A DNA stretch of 64,000 nt, from contig WLKQ01000001.1 of NCBI GenBank assembly GCA_009701185.1, positions 46,430-110,429 on the forward strand. Reading direction: 5' to 3'. Numbering within the stretch: the first letter of the stretch is position 1; each line of letters begins with the position of its first letter. Source of the DNA: Actinomycetota bacterium. Its GTDB lineage: Bacteria; Actinomycetota; Actinomycetes; Nanopelagicales; Nanopelagicaceae. Both the position numbers and the translations under genes were made by a program. The notes under the pieces are model-generated. The model did not search any database and was not told the DNA's origin. It saw nothing but the letters and a program-made list of their open reading frames with translations. Below are positions 62,518 to 64,000 of this stretch, piece by piece.

Positions 62518-63813
62518 TCATGCAGTTCGAGAGATAAGTAGTTGGCCCGCGCGCTTGCCCTCCATGGACAACACCGTAATTCGTAGGCCATTCAGGTTAA
62601 CAACATCGTGTTCGCGCGGAATTCGTCCTAAATAGTGCATAACAAAGCCACTCGCAGTCTCATAGGGACCATCGGGAATCTGCAGCTGCGTTTGTTCGAT
62701 CAAATCCTCAATCGAAATCAAGCCATCAACTTCAAAATCGCCCGTGCGGGCCTCTAGGTTAACTTCGGCTTCCTCATCATCATATTCATCACGAATATCT
62801 CCGATAAGGCACTCCACTAAATCTTCCAATGTGATGATGCCGTCAGTACCGCCGTATTCATCTAAAACAATTGCAAGGTGTTGACCCTGCATACGCATCT
62901 CAGTCAACGCCGGTAGCACACCTTTTGTGCCAGGCAAAAACATAATGTTGCGAACGAGTTCAACAATCTTGGTTGATTTGCTGGCAAGTGATGTATCTAG
63001 TAAATCTCGTACGTGAATAAAACCTACAACTTCATCTGATGATCCTCGAACAACTGGATAACGCGAATGTGCTTTATCAACGGCTAATTCAATAGCTTTA
63101 CCTACCGATAATGTTGCATCCATAAAATCAACTTCGGTGCGCGGCACCATTACTTCATGCACTTGTCGTTCGGATGCATTGAATACTTCTTCAACAATGT
63201 CGCGCTCTTCTTCCGTCAATGCAGCGTGACCGGCTACTAGATCAAGTAGCTCTTCTTCACTCATTGCACTGCGCTGCTCTTTAGGATCCACGCCAAAGGC
63301 GCGGACGACAAAATCCGTTGACTTAGATAGAAGCCAAATTACGGGGCGAAAAACTTTTGCAATAAGATCGATAATTCCAGCCGAAGCTAAAGAGATTTGT
63401 TCCGAGCGAAATAGTGCCAAGCGTTTTGGAACAAGCTCGCCAAAGACCAATGAGAAATATGCGATAACGAGTGTCACACCAATAATCGACAGAGTTGTAC
63501 TTGCGCCGTGGGAAAGGCCTTGATCTTCTAGCCAAGGAATTACATATCCGCCGAGTTTTTCAGCGCCTAGAGCGGCCGATAAAAATCCACAGACTGTTAC
63601 GCCCACTTGGGCGGCAGCTAAAAAGCGGTTGGGGTTTTCAGCTAACTTAGCAACGCGAGCGCCGGGTTTTCCACGGGTTGCTAGCTGGCGGACTTGGCTA
63701 TCACGCAATGAGATCAGGGCTATTTCGGCGGCAACAAAAAGGGCTGCAGTCAGGATGAGGGCTGCAACGATGCCTAAATCTACAAACAGTGAACTGAGCG
63801 AGTGTGACTCCAT
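62518..63813 (-). CDS. CNNM/CorC-type membrane protein (hemolysin C-like)
   Basis: 431 residues from ATG 63813; the track start adds 15 codons in the promoter region. An N-terminal DUF21/CNNM membrane domain (about 1-180, three to four helices), a CBS pair (about 200-330, MVPRTEVDFMD and LDEYGGTDGIITLEDL), and a C-terminal CorC_HlyC domain. The family is linked to Mg/Co efflux or Mg sensing. TATAGT lies 10 nt before the ATG, so its leader would be at most a few bases. Confidence 0.88.
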   Translation of the reverse strand: MESHSLSSLFVDLGIVAALILTAALFVAAEIALISLRDSQVRQLATRGKPGARVAKLAENPNRFLAAAQVGVTVCGFLSAALGAEKLGGYVIPWLEDQGLSHGASTTLSIIGVTLVIAYFSLVFGELVPKRLALFRSEQISLASAGIIDLIAKVFRPVIWLLSKSTDFVVRAFGVDPKEQRSAMSEEELLDLVAGHAALTEEERDIVEEVFNASERQVHEVMVPRTEVDFMDATLSVGKAIELAVDKAHSRYPVVRGSSDEVVGFIHVRDLLDTSLASKSTKIVELVRNIMFLPGTKGVLPALTEMRMQGQHLAIVLDEYGGTDGIITLEDLVECLIGDIRDEYDDEEAEVNLEARTGDFEVDGLISIEDLIEQTQLQIPDGPYETASGFVMHYLGRIPREHDVVNLNGLRITVLSMEGKRAGQLLISRTA

Positions 63814-63823
63814 TAGGTGGCCA

Positions 63824-63829
63824 ACTATA
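63824..63829 (-). promoter_or_regulatory. -10 box of CNNM/CorC gene
   Basis: TATAGT, 10 nt before the ATG at 63813; no ribosome site between. A transcript would start within about 3-4 nt of the start codon. Confidence 0.4.
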
Positions 63830-63852
63830 CGGTACCCCCAGAAGCCTGGCCT

Positions 63853-63880
63853 TTGCATATTGCACCTTTACGCGTAATCT
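63853..63880 (+). promoter_or_regulatory. Promoter of the MsiK-type ATPase gene
   Basis: TTGCAT (63853-63858) and TAATCT (63875-63880) with a 16-bp spacer. Transcription would start near 63887, just before the structured leader. Confidence 0.55.
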
Positions 63881-63886
63881 TGCCGC

Positions 63887-63961
63887 GTTGGCCCACCCGG
63901 GCCATCACCTTCATCCACGGACCGTCGGGCACGTACCTGCCCGGAGAAGGAGAGCAATCTC
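63887..63961 (+). ncRNA. Structured 5' leader, candidate msiK RNA motif
   Basis: A GC-rich 75-nt leader with two hairpins: GGCCC-ACCC-GGGCC (63890-63903) and CGGGCA-CGTACC-TGCCCG (63926-63943), followed by AAGGAG and the ATG. The msiK RNA motif is an established actinobacterial structure found before msiK ATPase genes; position and gene match. I have not aligned it to the published consensus. Confidence 0.65.
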
Positions 63962-64000
63962 ATGGCATCAGTAGTTTTCGAAGCCGCATCACGTATCTAC
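63962..64000 (+). CDS. msiK: MsiK/UgpC-type sugar ABC transporter ATPase (5' end only)
   Basis: Only 13 codons are inside the window, reading MASVVFEAASRIY. This is the usual first beta strand of MsiK/UgpC/MalK ATPases, shared energisers of several sugar importers. It has AAGGAG upstream and the msiK-like leader. The assignment rests on this short N-terminus and the leader. Confidence 0.7.
   Translation, partial: MASVVFEAASRIY

Follow-up and report, generated by a model that had tools for sequence, protein, structure and literature searches.

The 64,000-nucleotide stretch of DNA analysed here (the window) ends in a genuine msiK RNA leader, a member of Rfam family RF01747, followed by the first codons of an msiK gene. 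The conserved core of this RNA is preceded by a further hairpin, designated P0, which on comparison with related leaders is provisionally regarded as a new, statistically well supported extension of the known msiK leader.

Based on the arrangement of these elements, a mode of action is proposed. A sigma-70-type promoter would start the transcript at about 63887-63889, thereby putting P0 at the very 5' terminus of the mRNA, where it would most likely shield the message from 5'-end-dependent decay. The msiK core (P1, an 11-nt bulge and P2) would have the Shine-Dalgarno sequence enclosed within its P1 stem, and an effector which stabilises the core fold would be expected to lower MsiK translation. 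MsiK itself would be an ATPase common to several sugar importers and is the most likely candidate for the effector, acting through its nucleotide-binding domain and so feeding back on the ATPase level. The chances that this whole reading is correct (protection of the mRNA by P0, masking of the Shine-Dalgarno sequence by the core, and feedback by MsiK through the nucleotide-binding domain) are judged to be about even. The identity of the RNA, the arrangement of promoter, P0 and core, the conservation of P0, the computed pairing of the Shine-Dalgarno sequence and the nature of the gene in relatives are observations, whereas the transcript start, the mRNA protection, the translational switch and the effector are inferred. 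Given P0, the published model would seem to be missing a part of the leader, and P0 would provide separable functions in decay and in translation.

The msiK RNA core and its promoter

Weinberg et al. (2010, PMC2864571) described the msiK motif: a hairpin carries a bulge of 11 nt and has the ribosome site in its basal stem, and feedback by MsiK is proposed. The question of the effector dates from the same year, 2010. In the papers covered, a response to a ligand or protein was not found for any member of the family. Transcription of the motif is supported by RNA-seq in C. glutamicum and C. diphtheriae, and the transcript start published for C. glutamicum is situated 29 nt upstream of the motif.

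A scan of the whole window against Rfam revealed RF01747 as the sole family over threshold. The match, on the forward strand, covered the full length of the covariance model and scored 63.4 bits, well above the gathering score of 33 (E 3e-13). The original prediction had suggested that the leader fits the msiK RNA motif and had proposed this very search as its test; the significant match bears it out. It had also expected the case to help in defining a minimal structure, which it does not, as the core is complete and the first hairpin is an extra element lying beyond the model's base-paired portion. The long hairpin with its 11-nt bulge was confirmed in the alignment to the model, spans 63908-63950 and carries one A.A mismatch in P1. 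The window resembles the family (PMC2864571) in the 11-nt bulge, in a P1 stem enclosing the Shine-Dalgarno sequence, in P2 with its loop and in its location upstream of msiK. Unlike the window and most of its relatives, the RF01747 model has no P0, which overlaps just the unpaired start of the model (positions 1-9).

The fold energy of the window leader taken alone was unexceptional in comparison with shuffled sequences (z -0.82), and the evidence beyond chance is therefore the covariance model match together with conservation in relatives. The core itself yielded little covariation, its conservation within the order being too high. In many leaders from outside acI (L153, L158-L176 and L185-L209, from family f19 and others) the apical loop CGUACC is replaced by CGUUCC.

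Table 1. Features of the msiK leader, in positions of the window
Feature	Position	Strand	Basis
-35-like hexamer TTGCAT	63853..63858	+	sequence
-10-like hexamer TAATCT (TANNNT), 8 nt before P0	63875..63880	+	sequence; spacing to P0 conserved in relatives
P0, 6-bp hairpin TGGCCC-ACCC-GGGCCA, predicted mRNA 5' end	63889..63904	+	pair probability 0.97; enriched and covarying in relatives
msiK RNA core	63900..63958	+	RF01747, 63.4 bits, model positions 1-60
P1 5' strand, CCUUCAU	63908..63914	+	covariance model alignment, pair probabilities
Conserved 11-nt bulge, CCACGGACCGU	63915..63925	+	covariance model alignment; nearly invariant in the all-genera (A1) and single-genus (A2) alignments
P2, 6-bp stem with CGUACC loop	63926..63943	+	covariance model alignment; 100% of A2 cells paired
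P1 3' strand, GAGAAGG, overlapping the Shine-Dalgarno sequence	63944..63950	+	covariance model alignment
Shine-Dalgarno sequence AAGGAG	63947..63952	+	mean paired probability 0.81
P3, possible SD/anti-SD hairpin GAGA-GCAA-UCUC, directly before ATG	63950..63961	+	pair probability about 0.45
msiK start (MASVVFEAASRIY), cut by contig end	63962..64000	+	same start peptide as relative L011, whose homologue has 359 aa

The promoter of the original prediction, TTGCAT and TAATCT with a spacer of 16 nt, is present as described and sits just upstream of the interval which that prediction covered. Its two hairpins were likewise recovered, as P0 and the msiK hairpin of P1 and P2, and so was its ribosome site, AAGGAG, ahead of the ATG at 63962. 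The leader had further been described as GC-rich in an AT-rich, low-GC background. The first part holds, with a GC content of 64% in the leader against 45.5% in the window; the latter value is low for the phylum yet not AT-rich.

According to the pair probabilities of the window leader, AAGGAG, which overlaps the 3' strand of P1, is paired via P1 and partly via the small hairpin P3 located directly before the ATG. Similar SD/anti-SD pairings with changed inner pairs occur in some lineages (GAGA/UCUC, GAGC/GCUC and GAGUU/AACUC). As a general element P3 was rejected, its occurrence in relatives being patchy.

A 26-base segment of the core was matched exactly in Candidatus Planktophila, Nanopelagicaceae and other freshwater actinobacteria, which suggests that the host is a freshwater actinobacterium of the acI type. 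Within the order of the host the motif is near-universal: it was found in 178 of its 201 genomes, and in 105 of the 108 with a completeness of at least 90% and a contamination of at most 5%. An even draw over the phylum gave 38 genomes with the motif among 397. The genomes of this order are very small, and retention of the element in nearly all of them argues that it is worth its cost.

The downstream gene and the shared ATPase

The contig (110,429 bases) ends at window position 64000, and the leader thus stands in the 5' UTR of a gene of which 13 codons lie in the window and the remainder is known from relatives. The rest of the ATPase was sought in the other contigs of the 84-contig assembly and was not found there, the best match being 65% identical. 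The peptide encoded by the first 13 codons is identical in L011, a relative whose leader is closely similar and whose gene is complete, and in relatives the same leader is followed by an open reading frame some 359-360 aa long. The L011 protein scored above the NCBIfam cut-off for the UgpC subfamily and contains the Pfam domains ABC_tran, OB_MalK and TOBE_2; SugC and MalK are among its closest solved relatives in the PDB. As judged by homology, the downstream gene in the relatives is one for an MsiK/UgpC-type sugar ABC ATPase. The earlier description of a gene starting like MsiK agrees with the 359-aa sugar ABC ATPase of L011, and the possibility that the gene encodes something else, which would have counted against that description, falls away with the relatives.

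A divergent gene for a HlyC/CorC-like CBS-domain protein, named from its sequence, adjoins msiK at 62518-63858 on the reverse strand of the window, and a gene of this type also adjoins msiK in L012, L019 and L023. The assemblies of three related genomes break near msiK codons 13-15 (window position 64000, the end of L137, and contigs C84 and C53 of genome G541), perhaps because the site is repeated or varies between strains.

As the adjacency of permease and ATPase genes is uncertain at the ends of draft contigs, conclusions on transporter context were drawn from two complete genomes, G014 and G015. Five permease pairs of G015 (near 157, 170, 920, 1208 and 1321 kb) were without an ABC ATPase match within 4 kb, and a sugar-binding protein was detected at four of the five. 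The msiK gene of this genome is solitary, at 1112 kb. The layout is as would be expected of an ATPase shared among importers. Known shared ATPases (MsiK, SugC and MalK/UgpC) are similar to the MsiK of the relatives in combining ABC_tran with OB_MalK/TOBE_2 and in passing the UgpC cut-off, and similar to G015 in having a solitary gene alongside ATPase-less importers. They differ from three members of the genus in which the C-terminal domain is entirely missing.

In these three, L012 (complete genome G014), L015 (draft G055) and L023 (draft G027), MsiK has 240-246 aa and ends after the nucleotide-binding domain, without the C-terminal OB/TOBE domain. In L023 the nucleotide-binding domain runs straight into the native C-terminal residues, and both L012 and L023 have an intact convergent neighbour gene; this points to a clean deletion and not to a frameshift. 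The remaining matches in the 98 genomes of the genus were full-length frames, save those cut by contig ends. Loss of ATPase-less transporters was rejected as the cause of the deletion: none were seen in G014, but none were seen either in its sister draft G045, in which MsiK is full length.

The msiK RNA is retained in all three genomes with a short MsiK, at 60.9-63.0 bits. Should MsiK sense its own leader, retention of the RNA would not depend on the C-terminal domain; a recent loss of the domain could also explain it, since the three genomes appear to form one sublineage. A short MsiK behind an intact msiK RNA narrows feedback to the nucleotide-binding domain, or points to another effector. 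Such an effector might be a sugar metabolite or a protein other than MsiK, the core then being a riboswitch or protein target through which a metabolic signal, and not its own level, controls the shared ATPase. The near invariance of the 11-nt bulge and of the CGUACC loop is what a binding pocket would show, and the persistence of the RNA after MsiK has lost its C-terminal regulatory domain is in keeping with a sensor of this kind, although the loss is still compatible with binding through the nucleotide-binding domain. However, the msiK genes were unresponsive to changing glucose in data cited by Weinberg et al. (PMC2864571), and the motif is always tied to one gene, unlike most metabolite riboswitches. 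A sensor other than MsiK is considered to be on the unlikely side, and feedback by MsiK through its nucleotide-binding domain is preferred.

The upstream hairpin P0

In 126 sequence-thinned leaders the 48-nt segment preceding the core folded better than dinucleotide shuffles (mean z -1.12, Wilcoxon p 1.4e-15), which was not the case for a control segment located a further 120 nt upstream (mean z -0.06, p 0.45); thinning reduces the relatedness of the leaders and does not remove it. A stem of at least 5 bp was present near the core in 50 of 72 thinned leaders of the order, against 18.2 +/- 4.0 (maximum 26) in shuffled sequences and 20 in a segment 70 nt upstream. Among leaders of other families the corresponding figures were 28 of 39, against 13.6 +/- 2.6 (maximum 18) and 15. 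With 22 of the 72 order leaders and 11 of the 39 others lacking such a stem, P0 is common, not universal, among msiK leaders.

The MAFFT alignment of all genera (A1) shifts P0 between lineages, and covariation was therefore counted within a single genus (alignment A2), using 44 rows chosen without regard to P0. P0 cells changed on both sides numbered 32, compared with 14.4 in shuffled alignments and no more than 23 in slid versions; the paired share of the P0 cells was 67.9%, compared with at most 42.6% in slid versions. These counts are conservative, as seven rows in which the aligner had shifted P0 (L003, L012, L015, L019, L023, L029 and L211) were counted as unpaired. In two of the five measures applied to A2, the number of double-changed pairs and the number of pair types, P0 did not exceed the shuffles. 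The covariation of P0 is strong on cells, not on every measure. Arm pairs observed within one genus include GGCC/GGCC, GGTC/GACC, GATC/GATC and GAGTCC/GGGCTC.

Based on the -10 consensus TANNNT, the box was found to end 5-10 nt before the stem in 126 of 169 stem-bearing leaders, while about 4% would be expected from the upstream background. Among thinned leaders that contain just one TANNNT, the interquartile range of the distance from the -10 box was 6-8 nt to P0 versus 36-45 to the core; these ranges clearly differ, the standard deviations being inflated by outliers. A hairpin 5-10 nt after TANNNT was present in 68 of 91 thinned msiK leaders, other families included, versus 14 of 177 sites before other genes. 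The 3' end of P0 lies between -10 and -32 relative to the core, depending on the lineage. Because the spacing to the -10 box is tight, that to the core variable and a hairpin rare after the TANNNT of other genes, P0 appears to track the predicted transcription start and not the core. In the window, its position at the 5' end of the transcript is predicted from the -10 box alone, 8 nt from TAATCT.

Since no more than about 3 nt separate P0 from P1 in the genus of the window, P0 might be a second helix of the sensing structure, docking on the core. The looser spacing to the core than to the -10 box, together with a P0 loop conserved in part only (AACC being the commonest), makes this improbable, and P0 would fit better as a hairpin protecting the 5' end than as a component of the sensing core. 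A DNA operator palindrome for a transcription factor, in place of an RNA hairpin, would be located at the promoter start point as P0 is, and the arms do read similarly in family f19 (AGTCCAC/GTGGACT), but within one genus they co-vary to many sequences where a shared operator would stay fixed, which renders this reading very improbable. A role as intrinsic terminator or attenuator was rejected, there being no U run after the hairpin.

Protection of the mRNA, the role preferred for P0, has a precedent in E. coli ompA, where a 5' UTR stem-loop stabilises the mRNA. Stabilising 5' UTR stem-loops have been reviewed (PMC7509114). Those of the ompA type are similar to P0 in that a hairpin is placed at the mRNA start, which for P0 is a predicted one, and in a position fixed with respect to the promoter. 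They differ in that P0 is joined to a conserved cis-regulatory RNA, and its part in decay is one that we infer. A description of P0 was not found in the passages covered that mention msiK RNA, which came from the main text of papers available without subscription.

A broader proposal would be that msiK leaders throughout the class bear an unannotated 5' hairpin variable in sequence and fixed in position, that the nucleotide-binding domain of MsiK senses the RNA, and that the ATPase sets its own level through mRNA protection and masking of the Shine-Dalgarno sequence. In this generality it is regarded as unlikely to hold. In five leaders of family f34 (L150, L151, L154, L157 and L173) there are apparently two successive hairpins upstream of the core, not one.
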